From Ruminococcus sp. (GTDB lineage Bacteria; Bacillota; Clostridia; Oscillospirales; Acutalibacteraceae), in contig JAFLSM010000004.1 of the NCBI GenBank assembly GCA_022510955.1, forward strand, positions 1 to 64,000: 64,000 nt of DNA, written 5' to 3'. The translations under genes were made by a program, and so were the position numbers. The notes under the pieces are model-generated. The model ran no database searches and had not been told where the DNA came from. It saw only the letters and a program-made list of their open reading frames with translations. Position 1 is the stretch's first letter; each line of letters opens with the position of its first letter. Shown piece by piece: positions 42,774-49,490 of the stretch.

Positions 42774-44255
42774 TTAAAGCATATGTCTGCCAATGCGTTT
42801 TCTATGGAACAAATACTGTGTTTCAAGCATTGTTTCAAACTTTGCAATATAGCAGCTTGTATATCCCATACACAACCAAAACCACATTACCATAAATGAT
42901 AGGTCATATAACAGTGCCTTTTCAAAGAGTGCATACATCAAATATGCAAACAAAAAAGAAAAGAGACACGGGTAAATGTCATCCCTAAATGTATGTTTTT
43001 GCAAAAAAAGATGCTGTGCAGAATGTTTGGCAAATCTAAACCCAAAAATACCAAATACCATAAATCCGATTATTCCTGTTGAAACAAGTAAGGTCAAGTA
43101 ACCATTATGCAAATCATTGTTATGATAAGTATAATTAAGTGCACCATCTGAATATTGCTCACTATAAAATACAATATTGCCGTTTGAGATGCCGATTATC
43201 GGGGAAAGCTTAAAAAGATTAACAGATTCTTTCCAGAGCTTGAATCGACCACTGTCAGCATTCTTGTTTTTGTGATTGAAAGTAACAGTATTGGTTTCAG
43301 GCAGAACAACTTTAGTACCGTCATCTATGATGATTGTATCCGTATCCCCCACTAAAAGGCTGATAAACGAATTTGTTTTTGATACAACAACTGAAAAACC
43401 GGCTTTGCAAATTTCACGAAACATTAACGCAGAGCTTATAAGAAAAGTACCTACAAGCAAAAGTGCAATAATTTTGAGAAAAATTTTTGACTTTGAAATA
43501 GGTTTGTCAGGTTTTGCAATGCCCGTTTTATCAGCAAAAAAGATATACACTACATACACAACTGCATACCCCAAAGCAAGAACCATTGAGGCATTTGAGT
43601 CACATAAAATAAGTGAAAACAGGTTTGTGCATACACAAGAAATAATCCAGATTTTGCTGACTCTTTGCTGTGTTACTGCTTCCATAAAGTTCTTTTTATA
43701 GAGCATATGACAGCATACAATCGACACAACAGATACAAAACCCAAGTTATTAGGATTAATATATACGCCTGTAAAGCGATTTTCATAGATTGTAAACTTA
43801 ATCCAATACCATTCAAAGCTAAAACCAAGCATCAGGCAGGTAATACCGATTATATTAGCAATGGTTGTTATATATACAATTATTTTTGCTATTGTATAAA
43901 GTTCTTCTTTAAAATTAAAGTTCGACTCAGTGTGCATTCCGTAAAATATAAAAAAACACACAAAAACATGCAAAAGCATGATAAAACTATAAATAATTGT
44001 AATTGAAAAGTTTATAAGCATTGTAAGGGTTGAAAATGCAAGAAATGTTCCAACCCACAAGCCAAAACGCATTTTAAAGAAAGTGTTATTCTGTTTCTGA
44101 TTATTTATAACAAGATATGTGCCCCAAATAAACAAAAAAACTAAAAGTACATATGCAGGTATCTGCAAAAAAGAAACATAGCAAAAGAACAAATCAATTA
44201 TGTAGATTTTTCTGAATAGAGAAGCATCCTTTATATTAGCCTTTAAAGCAGTCAT
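42774..44255 (-). CDS. O-antigen ligase/Wzy-like polytopic membrane protein
   Basis: Multiple TM helices; GVYINPNNLGFVSVVSIV and DSGRFKLWKESVNLFKLSPIIGISNG...HNDLHNGYLTLLVSTGIIG Wzy_C-type motifs. Confidence 0.87.
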   Translation of the reverse strand: MTALKANIKDASLFRKIYIIDLFFCYVSFLQIPAYVLLVFLFIWGTYLVINNQKQNNTFFKMRFGLWVGTFLAFSTLTMLINFSITIIYSFIMLLHVFVCFFIFYGMHTESNFNFKEELYTIAKIIVYITTIANIIGITCLMLGFSFEWYWIKFTIYENRFTGVYINPNNLGFVSVVSIVCCHMLYKKNFMEAVTQQRVSKIWIISCVCTNLFSLILCDSNASMVLALGYAVVYVVYIFFADKTGIAKPDKPISKSKIFLKIIALLLVGTFLISSALMFREICKAGFSVVVSKTNSFISLLVGDTDTIIIDDGTKVVLPETNTVTFNHKNKNADSGRFKLWKESVNLFKLSPIIGISNGNIVFYSEQYSDGALNYTYHNNDLHNGYLTLLVSTGIIGFMVFGIFGFRFAKHSAQHLFLQKHTFRDDIYPCLFSFLFAYLMYALFEKALLYDLSFMVMWFWLCMGYTSCYIAKFETMLETQYLFHRKRIGRHML

Positions 44256-44272
44256 AGCAATACCTCAACTGA

Positions 44273-44953
44273 TTAACTGAAAACTTCTTTAACGGTTTTG
44301 AACATTAGCTTTATATCTGAACGAAAACCAAAGTTACGCAAGTATTTTAGATTATATGCCATCTTATCAGGCAAAATCTTTTCAATATACACACTATCAA
44401 CATCTTTTTCATTTGATAGAAGTTTTTCCTCATCTTTATACATAATGGACGCCAATGATGTAATTCCGGCAGGCATTAAAAGAGTTGCAAGGTATTCGTT
44501 TTTGTAGGAATCTACATACTTAGGCACCTCAGGACGAGCACCTACAACACTCATCTTTCCGGAAAGGACATTAAACACCTGAGGAATTTCATCAAGACGA
44601 TACTTACGCAAAAACCTACCTATCTGAGTTACTCTACTGTCACCGTCAATAGTTACAAGCGATCCTATTTTATCAGCACCGACAACCATCGTTCTGAATT
44701 TTAGGATTTTAAAATGTTTGCCATATGTTGTTACTCTAACCTGTTTATAAAATACAGGCCCTTTAGAGGTACATTTGACAGCAATCGAAATTATAATAAT
44801 CGGTATAATCAAAAAAACAAGCATAACAAGTGCTAAAATAATGTCAGAAACTCGCTTTAATATTATGCTTGACTTCTTATTAGAAAGAATGTCATAATAT
44901 TCTCTGACCTCGTCACACTGAAACTTCTGCGGTAATTTATCAAACGAAAGCAT
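44273..44953 (-). CDS. Undecaprenyl-phosphate sugar phosphotransferase (bacterial sugar transferase)
   Basis: KRVSDIILALVMLVFLIIPIIIISIAVKCTSKGPVFYKQVR...KFRTMV...RKYRLDEIPQVFNVLSGKMSVVGARPEVP. Confidence 0.93.
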   Translation of the reverse strand: MLSFDKLPQKFQCDEVREYYDILSNKKSSIILKRVSDIILALVMLVFLIIPIIIISIAVKCTSKGPVFYKQVRVTTYGKHFKILKFRTMVVGADKIGSLVTIDGDSRVTQIGRFLRKYRLDEIPQVFNVLSGKMSVVGARPEVPKYVDSYKNEYLATLLMPAGITSLASIMYKDEEKLLSNEKDVDSVYIEKILPDKMAYNLKYLRNFGFRSDIKLMFKTVKEVFS

Positions 44954-45100
44954 AGATTAACTCCTATACATAATTAATAATTGAACAGATTTACAAATTG
45001 AATACAGTCTATCTGCATTTATTCAGTAAGCATTATATTACTTTTAACATTGATTTTCAAGAATTATTAAAAATCTGCAACAAAATAAAGCATAAAGTAA

Positions 45101-45132
45101 AAACCGACAGCCCATTGCTGTCGGTTTTTAGG
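45101..45132. terminator. Hairpin with terminator character, orientation uncertain
   Basis: AAAAACCGACAGC-CCATT-GCTGTCGGTTTTT; lies upstream of the minus-strand sugar transferase and before a plus-strand gene. Confidence 0.55.
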
Positions 45133-45353
45133 TAATTTTATGGAGTAATCAAACACATAGAAAGGAAGTCATTATATCTTATCATCTCTCTGTTACAATT
45201 AAACTATATCATACCTTTTGTTAATTGTCAACACTTTTTTTTGACTTTTTTAATAATTTGTATATTTTTTATTCAATTACACTTTCCTGCATAATTCTCT
45301 TGACTTAATGAATAAAAAAATGTAAAATTAGATTAGCAAAGGAGGTTAAAAAT

Positions 45354-45659
45354 ATGGCAAATGAATATACTCCGGATCTTGTAACTCTGATTAGCGAAGA
45401 AGGCGAAGAAATTGAGTTTGAGATTCTTGATATAATCGAAAATGAAGACGGCAAGTTTTATGTGCTGTATCCTTATTACGAAAATCCTGCTGATGCAGTG
45501 AATGACCCGGGTGAATACTACATCTTTGAGGTTCAGGAGGTTGACGGCGAAGAAGAACTTGCTGAAATCGAAAACGATGAATTGCTTGATAAGCTTGCTG
45601 ACGAATTTGAAAAAAGATATAATGAAAGTTTTTTTGATGACGAAGAAAGCAAAGAGTAA
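45354..45659 (+). CDS. DUF1292 domain-containing protein
   Basis: Acidic small protein: LVTLISEEGEEIEFEILDIIENEDGKFYVLYPYYEN...YYIFEVQEVDGEEELAEIEND. Confidence 0.88.
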   Translation: MANEYTPDLVTLISEEGEEIEFEILDIIENEDGKFYVLYPYYENPADAVNDPGEYYIFEVQEVDGEEELAEIENDELLDKLADEFEKRYNESFFDDEESKE

Positions 45660-45690
45660 TTTTTAAATTTTTAACACATAATATTTTTAG

Positions 45691-45886
45691 ACAGCTTTAC
45701 CCTGCCTAATTCGCGAATGATTTTTAAATAACCCTACAACATTTAAATCGGGAGCCGGACTCTATTAAGCGGTGTGCAGACCTCCCGTTTTCGGAAGAAG
45801 GGAGCCTGATGCTTAAAGGTTGGCACCCACCTGCTACTTCGTAGGCAGGTTATTATCAAAATCATACGGTTAGGCGGGGCTTTATT
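45691..45886 (+). ncRNA. ssrS: Probable 6S RNA
   Basis: ~195-nt intergenic segment. Terminal stem pairs cCCTGCCTAA with TTAGGCGGGG; internal GTGCAGACCTCCCG...GGGAGCC and CACCCACCTGC...GCAGGTTATTATCAAAATCATACGG resemble Firmicute 6S sequences as remembered. Not run through Infernal. Confidence 0.72.
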
Positions 45887-45921
45887 ATGACTTATACAAA
45901 TTTACATATTTTAGGTGAACT

Positions 45922-46884
45922 ATGAAAATTTCTGTTTTAGGATGCGGTCGCTGGGGTAGCTGTATTGCATGGTATCTTGACAAAATTGGTCACGATGTAA
46001 TGTCTTGCGGTCTTGCGGATGCCCCCGAATTTATTCAGCTTGAGAAAACACATAAAAATGATTATCTTGAATTTCCAATGTCGATTGAAGTTTCTTCAAA
46101 CCTTAAAAATGCTGTTGACAGAGCTGAGGTTATTGTAATCTCTATTTCTTCTCAGCATTTGCGTTCATATATTGCACAAATTTCCGAGCATAATCTTGAC
46201 GGTAAAATAATTATTCTTTGTATGAAGGGTGTTGAAGCAACAACAGGTAAGCGTTTGAGCGAAGTTGTCGGAGAATTTGTTGATGAGAGCAAAACTCCGA
46301 TTGCCGTTTGGGTTGGCCCCGGACATCCCCAGGATTATGTTAAAGGCATTCCAAACTGTATGGTAATTGACAGCAATAATCAGGAAGTCAAGGAAAAGCT
46401 TGTAAATGAGTTTACAAGTGAGCTTATAAGGTTTTATCTTGGTACTGACCTTATAGGCAGCGAAATTGGTGCTGCTGCAAAGAATGTTGTTGGAATTGCT
46501 GCGGGTATGCTTGACGGACTTGGATACACCTCGCTTAAAGGTGCACTTATGGCAAGAGGCACAAGGGAAATTTCAAGACTTATTAAGGCTCTTGGCGGCA
46601 ATGAAATGAGTGCATACGGACTTTGCCACTTGGGAGACTATGAGGCTACCCTATTCTCCCCTTGGAGTCACAACAGAAAATACGGTGAAGAATTCGTTAA
46701 GAGCAACCAATTTGAAAAGCTTGCAGAGGGTGTTATGACTTCAAAGGCACTTTATAAGCTTGGCAAAGAATTTAATGTTGAACTTCCGATTGTTGATGCA
46801 ATTTACAGCGTTTTATTTGAGGAAGAAGATATTAATACTGCTCTTTCAAAACTATTTGTGCGTACAGTAAAAAAAGAGTTTTAA
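45922..46884 (+). CDS. gpsA: NAD(P)H-dependent glycerol-3-phosphate dehydrogenase
   Basis: ISVLGCGRWGSCIAWYL, GPGHPQDYVKGIPN, EIGAAAKNVVGIAAGMLDGLG. Confidence 0.9.
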   Translation: MKISVLGCGRWGSCIAWYLDKIGHDVMSCGLADAPEFIQLEKTHKNDYLEFPMSIEVSSNLKNAVDRAEVIVISISSQHLRSYIAQISEHNLDGKIIILCMKGVEATTGKRLSEVVGEFVDESKTPIAVWVGPGHPQDYVKGIPNCMVIDSNNQEVKEKLVNEFTSELIRFYLGTDLIGSEIGAAAKNVVGIAAGMLDGLGYTSLKGALMARGTREISRLIKALGGNEMSAYGLCHLGDYEATLFSPWSHNRKYGEEFVKSNQFEKLAEGVMTSKALYKLGKEFNVELPIVDAIYSVLFEEEDINTALSKLFVRTVKKEF

Positions 46885-46900
46885 GTGTAGGAATTAAAAA

Positions 46901-48556
46901 ATGAGTAAAAGTAAAAAAACTGATGTAAAAAAACATAAGACAATTAATACTGTTAAGCTTGGTAAACAAACTGAAAGTATTGTTGTAAACATAATATGTC
47001 TGCTTGTATTTATAGCCTTTGGTTATCTTTCCGTAATGAGCATATTACAAACAAGCAAAATTGACCCGACAAAATACGGCAGTGAAGTTATATTGTATGA
47101 AACAGATAATATTGCATTAAATATACTGTTTATGTCCATCTTCTTCGTATTTTTATTTGCAATGAAAAAACGATATGACTTTTTTCAAAAAGTCAATATT
47201 AAGGTTCTTGAAATAGCATTGCCGTGTTATGTTGCATCCTTAGGTCTTATATGGGTTTTATCAGCTCAATCAGTGCCTGCTGCTGACAGCCAAAATATTT
47301 TTGAGGCTGCCACAAACGCAACACAAGGCAACTATCAGTCTATGTATAACGGCGGAAATTTTTATAACAAAGATTTTTACAGCGGATATTCATATTTCAA
47401 TTTTTATCCGTTCCAGCTCGGTTTTGTATTTTTAAGTGAAATTGTTTACAGAATTTTCGGAATCGAAACTGCAATGCCGATTGAAATTATAAATGTGTTG
47501 TGCGTAGCTGCGGCTTATCTTGCAATTACTAAAATTTGCAAAATAATATTCAAAAAACGCTCAATAGAGTTTTTTACAATTATTCTTCTTGCAGGTTGTT
47601 TTCAGCCTATTTTATTCTGCACATTTGTTTATGGCAACATAATCGGAATGTGCTGTGCATTGTGGGCAAGCTACTTACTTATAAAGTATTTTCAGACATC
47701 AAAATATGTTTTACTTATCCCCTGTGCAGTATTGCTTACACTATCAACGCTTGCAAAATACAACAATATGATTTATGTTGTGGCTTTCGTTATAATGCTG
47801 ATTGTTCATACAATTAAGCAGAAAAAGTGGCAAAGCGTTGCTTTTGCATTAGCCATCTGCATTTTATCTGTAGGTACAAGCAATCTTGTGATAATGAGCT
47901 ATGAAAACCGTGCAAACACAACATTCGAAAGCGGTGTTTCACAGACACTGTACCTTGATATGGGACTTAACGAAAGTGGTATGGCTCCCGGATGGTATAA
48001 CGATATTGCAAAGAGCACCTATATTAATAATGGTCTCAACAATGAAATGGCAGACAAGGCTGCAAAAGCTGACATTGACAATCGAATGAAGTACAGCTTT
48101 TCAAATGTTAACTACACTGTTGACTTCTTTGGAAAGAAAATCTTAAGTCAGTGGAACGAGCCCACATTTGAAAGCATTTGGATTAGCAAGGTAAAAGGAC
48201 ATTACGGTGATTTAAACGGTTTGGCAAAGGGAATTTATAACGGAAGCACCGGACAGTTCTTTGAATTATGGTTTAATCTGTATGCTCAAATTCTGTATCT
48301 ACTATTTGCTGTCGGACTGTACTGTATGTTCTTAAACAAGAAGAACAGTATTGAAACTGTACTGCTACCTCTGATTATACTCGGTGGATTTGGTTATCAT
48401 TTACTGTTCGAGGGAAAATCACAATATGTTTTAACTTATATTCCGTTGCTTATTCCCGTAGCATCATACGGAATATCCTGTATACTGAACGGAAAATATA
48501 CCAAAATAAAAGAAATTGTCGGAAAACTAAAATACATTCCGGAAAAAAGCAATTAA
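46901..48556 (+). CDS. GT-C-like (GT39/PMT-type) multi-spanning glycosyltransferase-like membrane protein
   Basis: Many TM helices with a large loop; YNFYPFQLGFVFLSEIVYRIFG and LAKYNNMIYVVAFVIMLIVH features. Confidence 0.7.
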   Translation: MSKSKKTDVKKHKTINTVKLGKQTESIVVNIICLLVFIAFGYLSVMSILQTSKIDPTKYGSEVILYETDNIALNILFMSIFFVFLFAMKKRYDFFQKVNIKVLEIALPCYVASLGLIWVLSAQSVPAADSQNIFEAATNATQGNYQSMYNGGNFYNKDFYSGYSYFNFYPFQLGFVFLSEIVYRIFGIETAMPIEIINVLCVAAAYLAITKICKIIFKKRSIEFFTIILLAGCFQPILFCTFVYGNIIGMCCALWASYLLIKYFQTSKYVLLIPCAVLLTLSTLAKYNNMIYVVAFVIMLIVHTIKQKKWQSVAFALAICILSVGTSNLVIMSYENRANTTFESGVSQTLYLDMGLNESGMAPGWYNDIAKSTYINNGLNNEMADKAAKADIDNRMKYSFSNVNYTVDFFGKKILSQWNEPTFESIWISKVKGHYGDLNGLAKGIYNGSTGQFFELWFNLYAQILYLLFAVGLYCMFLNKKNSIETVLLPLIILGGFGYHLLFEGKSQYVLTYIPLLIPVASYGISCILNGKYTKIKEIVGKLKYIPEKSN

Positions 48557-48665: not shown

Positions 48666-49151
48666 TTAATCAGACTTTTTTCTTTTATCTAACAATTTAT
48701 TTGCTTTTCTTGAACCAAATCTAAAAGCTCGTCTTAGGAATCTTGTATAAATCCAAAAGTTCACATAAAGACGATAACTAAATGACTGCTTGGTGTAACT
48801 TTTTCCTTTGCGAAAAAAAGCAGTCATTACAGCAATTATTTGGTCGTTGCGGATACCGTGTTCCAAAGCAAACTGATTGTCCCCGCACATAACATAGCAA
48901 CCGTCCGGATCAAGATTATATACCCTGTGCAGTACATAATGTCCATCATCACGCTTATAAAAGGCAACATCAGATACACGAATTCTGCCCTGTGGCTTTT
49001 CAAGTATTACTACATCCTGACCGTCACGAAGCATTGGTAACATACTTGTTCCTTTAGGAGTAAAAGTAACCTTTCCACCTGCATCAAGCTTTTCTATCAT
49101 TAAACCTATGACATCATCAACAGAAACCAGCTTACTCAAGGATATCAGCAT
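48666..49151 (-). CDS. S24/S26-family signal peptidase-like protein
   Basis: VTFTPKGTSMLPMLRDGQDVVIL catalytic Ser region, DVAFYKRDDGHYVLHRVYNLDPDGCYVMCGDN. Confidence 0.83.
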   Translation of the reverse strand: MLISLSKLVSVDDVIGLMIEKLDAGGKVTFTPKGTSMLPMLRDGQDVVILEKPQGRIRVSDVAFYKRDDGHYVLHRVYNLDPDGCYVMCGDNQFALEHGIRNDQIIAVMTAFFRKGKSYTKQSFSYRLYVNFWIYTRFLRRAFRFGSRKANKLLDKRKKSD

Positions 49152-49395
49152 CCTTTACTTTTTGGATAAAAATATCAATGTCTTCTGATGCTTTTTTCTG
49201 CGGTACATCATACTCTTCAAGCATTTTATCAAGTAATTCTTCTTTTGTTGCACCCTTTTGCAAAAGTTCAAAAAGGAACGCTCCTGTTTCGTTAAGATTG
49301 ATAATTCCATTAAAGTCGAGTGTCATACTGTTTACAGGCACTACAACATAGGTATCTGCAACCTTACGAAGAATGAAATCATCTTTTATCTTCAT
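49132..49395 (-). CDS. PqqD-family protein (RiPP recognition element-like fold)
   Basis: FILRKVADTYVVVPVNSMTLDFNGIINLNETGAFLFELLQKGATKEELLDKMLEEYDVPQKKASEDIDIFIQKVKDADIL matches the PqqD-like pattern; stop overlaps the start of the S26-like gene. Confidence 0.85.
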   Translation of the reverse strand: MKIKDDFILRKVADTYVVVPVNSMTLDFNGIINLNETGAFLFELLQKGATKEELLDKMLEEYDVPQKKASEDIDIFIQKVKDADILE

Positions 49396-49460
49396 AATAC
49401 CACCTACTGTGTTTATTTTTGCAATATGGTATTATTATAATATATAAATAAACAAAAAGC

Positions 49461-49490
49461 AAGGGTATTGCCGTGTGACAATACCCTATC
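49461..49490 (-). terminator. Intrinsic terminator of groES-groEL
   Basis: GGGTATTGTCACACGGCAATACCC followed by TTGCTTTTTGTTT on the minus strand. Confidence 0.8.

Follow-up and report, generated by a model that had tools for sequence, protein, structure and literature searches.

Two overlapping genes near groEL in a Ruminococcus sp. contig encode a PqqD-like protein and a signal-peptidase-like protein, raising the question of which pathway the two serve and which peptide they could process together. We analysed these genes within a 64,000-nt stretch of DNA (the window) and compared them with relatives in genomes that are mostly draft assemblies, using gene calls from a simple ORF procedure. 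Both open reading frames and their overlap of about 20 nt, as given in the original prediction, proved exact (Table 1), and the two genes are likely to be translationally coupled. A further proposal, that the pair has its own upstream TATAAT-like sequence, holds for the hexamer but not for a promoter: no −35/−10 pair passes on the minus strand and the DNA is AT-rich, so the promoter claim is weak. The terminator-like hairpin sits after groEL and sets the pair apart from it, and an Rfam scan of the pair returned no match. As had been reported from the letters of the sequence, no maturase, cyclase or transporter gene adjoins the pair and no obvious precursor peptide is adjacent; a precursor is likewise missing from the entire window (best HMM E = 3).

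Table 1. Positions of the gene pair and nearby signals in the window
Feature	Position	Strand	Product or role	Evidence
RRE (PqqD family, LppB-like)	49132-49395	−	87 aa, predicted leader-peptide binding	PF05402, RRE fold, contact residues, dN/dS
S26B/SipW-type Ser-His peptidase (LppS-like)	48666-49151	−	161 aa, predicted leader peptidase	TIGR02228, fold, residues, dN/dS
20-nt overlap of RRE and S26 genes	49132-49151	−		Coordinates; recurs in relatives
TATAAT hexamer, possible −10 box	49434-49439	−		No matching −35
Terminator-like hairpin between groEL and the RRE-S26 pair	49462-49487	−		

A discrete RRE and a Ser-His peptidase

The first gene of the pair encodes a protein of the proposed PqqD/RRE identity. 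It matches Pfam PF05402 with E 4.9e-16, above the curated cut-off, and its AlphaFold model (mean pLDDT 84.7) has the RRE layout of three strands and three helices. Foldseek confirms the fold, with the lasso RRE TbiB1–leader complex 5v1u as top match (E 1.4e-5, TM 0.75). Elsewhere in the window genome, only one PqqD-type match exceeds the cut-off; it lies within an ORF of 468 aa on contig C78 that is probably a fused-RRE maturase.

The partner protein matches Pfam weakly (S24, E 0.027) and the archaeal-type signal peptidase model TIGR02228 with E 2.4e-7, below that model's cut-off. Its predicted structure (mean pLDDT 82.8) resembles signal peptidase and LexA/UmuD folds (best E 2.2e-3, probability 1.00), in agreement with the S26-like fold first suggested; the Ser/Lys active site expected with that fold did not hold up. 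Catalytic residues have not been lost among 71 homologs, with Ser36 kept in 69/71, His75 in 71/71 and Gly90-Asp91 in 71/71. Because of this conservation we assign the protein to the S26B (SipW/Sec11) Ser-His enzymes; a Ser/Lys signal peptidase was dropped from consideration given the invariant His. SxMxP, HR and GD motifs and the fold are shared with SipW/archaeal-type signal peptidases but, unlike these, the window-type S26 protein is short, is coupled to an RRE and has no convincing membrane anchor by hydropathy across 72 homologs (median highest 19-residue value 0.8). The window protein reaches 1.65 in a stretch that contains two Asp, and its model places a helix at residues 11–23.

Nucleotidyltransferase, kinase, exporter and precursor genes are all absent beside the pair, as they might be for a non-functional relic of a lost operon. 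Selection and gene content make this reading extremely improbable. Measured against the nearest ortholog with the overlap region excluded, dN/dS is 0.06 for the RRE and 0.11 for S26; both genes are under strong purifying selection and therefore not decaying, the catalytic residues are intact, and a precursor and a kinase are retained elsewhere in the window genome.

Complete operons in relatives and likeness to LPP RiPPs

The S26 protein is present in 35/35 same-genus genomes examined, in 8 of 23 genomes sampled elsewhere in the order, one from each family, and in 44/59 genomes overall, the window's own counted; a class-wide sample has it in 103 of 391 genomes and 66 of 223 genera. The pairing on which the original prediction depended is conserved: of 70 evaluable relatives, 57 have a PqqD gene immediately ahead of S26. 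Spacing shows this order in 53 loci; in the other four (L071, L074, L100 and L104) an over-long S26 start masks the PqqD neighbour. Exceptions include one locus with the order reversed and two with PqqD elsewhere in the locus. Most pairs overlap by 4–29 nt, 11 of the 53 with measured spacing by exactly 20 nt.

We surveyed the gene neighbourhoods of 72 S26 homologs, complemented by family searches. Four kinds of partner recur. The HprK-like kinase (about 240 aa) has no Pfam match and resembles ScmC/HprK_rel_B only weakly; the ABC exporter is MsbA-like and about 570 aa long; the nucleotidyltransferase (NTP_transf_5, about 400 aa) sits beside S26 or is fused to it; and the fourth kind comprises LRR or mini proteins that bear a dockerin domain. 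Upstream of the pairs lie small ORFs that share the leader MKKxYxxPE[FI]E...[ED]DVIxxS; a search for small conserved ORFs had been proposed in the original prediction. Complete relatives have the core order precursor, HprK-like kinase, RRE, S26, MsbA-like exporter and nucleotidyltransferase, and the fullest operons run from a large secreted-type protein through precursor, LRR-dockerin protein, in some cases the kinase, PqqD, S26 and exporter to the nucleotidyltransferase. Such a one-cluster layout is present in L040 and L063–L067, and S26 and nucleotidyltransferase are fused in a single frame of 484–510 aa in L105:2448-3902, L106:1390-2853 and L112:3697-5148. In the S26 tree, groEL-linked pairs, the window's included, share a weakly supported part with complete operons.

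Two further arrangements were seen. L116 (G048:C11) is a variant cluster of PqqD, an 82-aa Cys-containing YxxP peptide, HprK-like kinase, radical SAM protein, ABC exporter and S26. Wherever a second HprK-like kinase occurs (L151 (G000:C33:2577-4324), L158, L160, L164, L165, L168 and L169), a gene for a YjeF_N-domain protein follows it, and in L078, L079, L087 and L095 PqqD-S26 lies between these two genes.

Co-occurrence was tested in the 23 order-level genomes, one per family, leaving out same-genus genomes as non-independent. S26 and the HprK-like kinase are jointly present in 8/8 and jointly absent in 15/15 (p 2e-6), and S26 also co-occurs with the precursor (p 3e-5) and the nucleotidyltransferase (p 0.003). 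The perfect co-occurrence with the kinase, the YxxP-leader peptides upstream and the hydropathy of the family all argue against a repurposed SipW-type signal peptidase that uses an RRE adaptor to process Sec-exported proteins outside RiPP pathways. We consider this reading very unlikely, although the top named match of the S26 protein is an archaeal-type signal peptidase and its neighbours often encode secreted proteins.

The same parts make up the linear polyphosphorylated peptide (LPP) RiPPs, described for lppAKBSDN of Paenibacillus alginolyticus (Nat Commun, 20 May 2026; PMC13381572), in which the LppA precursor, LppK HprK-like kinase, LppB RRE, LppS SipW-like peptidase, LppD exporter and LppN NTP transferase are encoded in the order A-K-B-S-D-N. 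LppK phosphorylates core Ser3, and the phospho-Ser of LppA lies 18 residues past the leader Tyr; LppB, whose N33, Y60, D70 and F74 grip the leader Tyr and Pro, is required for cleavage by LppS, which is dead as an S29A, H68A or D93A mutant; and LPP RREs bind a YxxP-type motif for linear peptides, within the leader motif YxxPxVLxHQxIxFETxxS (PMC13381572). The systems studied here share with LPP a discrete RRE, a SipW-type Ser/His leader peptidase, an HprK-like kinase, an NTP transferase, a YxxP leader and a linear character (no lasso B2), and complete relatives also have the MsbA-like exporter and the gene order. N35, Y62, D72 and F76 of the window RRE are the equivalents of the four LppB contact residues, with the numbering offset derived by hand, and are invariant in the RRE alignment (A5); Ser and His are 39 residues apart in both the window S26 protein and LppS (S29/H68). 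The pair matches LppB plus LppS, and by analogy the system would work like LPP, with the window RRE, as a discrete RRE of the kind that LPP pathways use for a YxxP leader, predicted from sequence and model to bind such a leader.

Several features set these systems apart from LPP. RRE and S26 lie away from precursor and kinase in the window genome; the relatives have many precursors at dispersed sites, immediately after large secreted-protein genes and close to dockerin proteins; the leader end reads FED or DVIxxS where LPP has FETxxS; S26 can be fused to the nucleotidyltransferase; and the hosts are Ruminococcus and other Clostridia, unnamed in the text of the LPP paper, in which Clostridi-, Ruminococc- and dockerin are absent (PMC13381572). 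The window genome holds an RRE, a Ser-His leader peptidase, an HprK-like kinase and an NTP transferase, not gathered in one cluster. Because this layout and the strict leader motif are lacking, we regard the pair as an LPP variant rather than a plain member. The suggestion that the pair belongs to an undescribed system has thus been overtaken by the LPP family. New with respect to PMC13381572 are the trans arrangement, the dispersed precursors behind secreted-protein genes, the S26-nucleotidyltransferase fusions and the wide occurrence in the class. In the literature searched, RRE plus SipW-type RiPPs are described only in PMC13381572; we found there neither a split layout nor a surface-protein link for an LPP-type pathway, nothing joining PqqD with dockerin, or R. 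bromii, dockerin and RiPP, and nothing for SynChlorMet. Exopolysaccharide-type genes lie near the pair (window positions 42774–48556: O-antigen ligase-like (Wzy_C), bacterial sugar transferase and a PMT_2 protein), and published LPP clusters likewise lie in capsule loci.

Two other known systems bear a resemblance. SynChlorMet (ScmC/ScmD) and HPr-rel-A cassettes (NCBIfam) have a PqqD-like partner, and ScmC is the best NCBIfam match of the HprK-like proteins, but scores are far below cut-off and radical SAM partners are absent save at the distant locus L116. Lasso systems of the paeninodin/pseudomycoidin type also combine a discrete RRE, HprK-like kinase, nucleotidyltransferase, ABC exporter and [Y/W]xxP leader, whereas here an S26 peptidase replaces the B2 protease and the motif residue is Tyr, not Trp. 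The best matches of the RRE are lasso B1 proteins and the leader is of YxxP type, as membership of a lasso peptide pathway would have it; yet this motif is also bound by LPP RREs, whose peptides are linear, and the B2 protease family PF13471 has no match in the window genome and none above cut-off in the genus. We rejected lasso membership for lack of B2, and its probability is negligible.

Candidate partners elsewhere in the window genome

LPP-type parts of the window genome are spread over contigs C34, C17, C33 and C2, with RRE and S26 by groEL and the precursor and one kinase on a different contig, C17. A precursor model made without the window genome has a single match in that genome, the C17 peptide (E 4.7e-5), which is again the sole match of a wider model that includes it. 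This 44-aa peptide, MKKIYENPLFEVTKFSFEDRVNSSEVVPEETIPVEGSEFPEEDE, has a YxxP leader (YENP) with Ser 18–19 residues past the Tyr (SS); HQxIxFET is unmatched, with FED instead, and AGGGAGG precedes its ATG. On one side of it is a protein of 1557 aa whose start resembles a secretion signal, and on the other an LRR-dockerin protein of 287 aa (PF13306, PF00404). The LRR-dockerin gene is followed by an HprK-like kinase, two genes downstream of the precursor. A remote locus of this type also occurs in G001, G002, G029, G032 and G034, each with a split RRE-S26 pair, and the large proteins of these loci are homologous to each other, directly or via one another.

The remaining components are also distant from the pair. 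Neither of the two HprK-like kinases of the genome (C17 and C33) adjoins it, and the C33 copy adjoins a YjeF_N protein. The one nucleotidyltransferase gene, of PF14907 type and diverged, lies on C2 and not adjacent to the pair; sister loci have this gene beside S26, and it is missing at the window locus. An MsbA-like exporter is present in complete relatives, whereas no dedicated exporter was recognised in the window genome, where the best matches of an LppD-like profile are generic exporters and one of C39 type encoded next to an AgrB-like gene; none of them was assigned to the pathway. The locus with the C39-type exporter, G000:C4 (L197:112-3240), has an AgrB-like gene and then a C39-peptidase ABC exporter and is probably a separate autoinducer-peptide locus.

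We consider it probable that the RRE-S26 pair provides the leader-recognition protein and leader peptidase of a genome-split LPP-type RiPP pathway. The C17 YxxP precursor and kinase, together with the single-operon relatives, support the split pathway with a remote precursor put forward in the original prediction; with pair and precursor on different contigs, the link between them is drawn from genome content, homology and comparison. We infer the following course. The RRE would bind the YxxP motif near the precursor N terminus, most likely that of the C17 peptide, and present the peptide to an HprK-like kinase, probably the C17 copy, which would phosphorylate the Ser just behind the leader. 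The RRE would also present the peptide to the S26 peptidase for removal of the leader, the phosphate may be modified further by the nucleotidyltransferase encoded elsewhere, and export of the linear phosphopeptide would fall to an ABC exporter.

The pair could instead be an RRE-dependent leader peptidase with a substrate other than the C17 peptide, either a precursor that escaped recognition or secreted proteins cut at their tails. Near PqqD-S26 pairs in L093, L105, L109, L110 and L114, the lipoprotein-like and mini-dockerin proteins of a locus, in some cases with the precursor, carry common short C-terminal tails (ELPFIPN, IDFSDLE and GYYxxIVKP types), and one split-pair genome that is 84% complete, G030, has no recognised precursor. 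Set against these points, the kinase, YxxP peptide and LRR-dockerin order on C17 is that of complete pair-bearing operons, and the C17 peptide is the sole precursor match in the genome, making another substrate unlikely.

Precursors next to secreted-protein genes

A hand-picked precursor set was used (A6). Among 29 precursors, YxxP is present in 24 after hand correction of one row, and a Ser lies 17–20 residues past the leader Tyr in 25 (26/29 after the same correction); some close relatives keep the Ser spacing less strictly. Of 62 distinct precursors, a biased set in part recovered near the RRE-S26 pair, 54 have an ORF of 120 aa or more on the same strand within 400 nt upstream. For about 38 of those 54 precursors, counted by hand, the upstream ORF is within 30 nt. 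Many of these ORFs are long, and those scanned include some with BspA-LRR or beta-helix matches and others with no Pfam family. Near-identical precursors stand in a row in L161 and L162 (G015) and L163 (G012), and each immediately follows a large secreted-type protein (LRR or other) that ends in a GCCASY/GCVTNY/GCYTNY-type motif.

These arrangements suggest, as a lead rather than a result given the biased set and the missing random-gene null, that LPP-type peptides of Ruminococcus and related Clostridia may be companions of large secreted surface or dockerin-associated proteins and not free-standing natural products. We advance this idea tentatively, with odds somewhat short of even. One or a few central RRE-S26 pairs would then act in trans to mature the many precursors, up to about 15 matches per genome, each right behind such a gene, and the resulting phosphopeptide would serve assembly, anchoring or signalling of the surface protein.

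LPP peptides were described as recently as 2026 (PMC13381572), and a simple leader model is now available for finding the substrates of RRE-S26 pairs. In the Ruminococcus bromii group the genes of a processing pair can lie far from that of its substrate, and local gene-cluster mining overlooks such split pathways. The likely substrates there are linked to large secreted proteins and to dockerin-bearing ones. This points to a function at the cell surface that can be tested, possibly in amylosome or cellulosome biology, rather than to an antibiotic.
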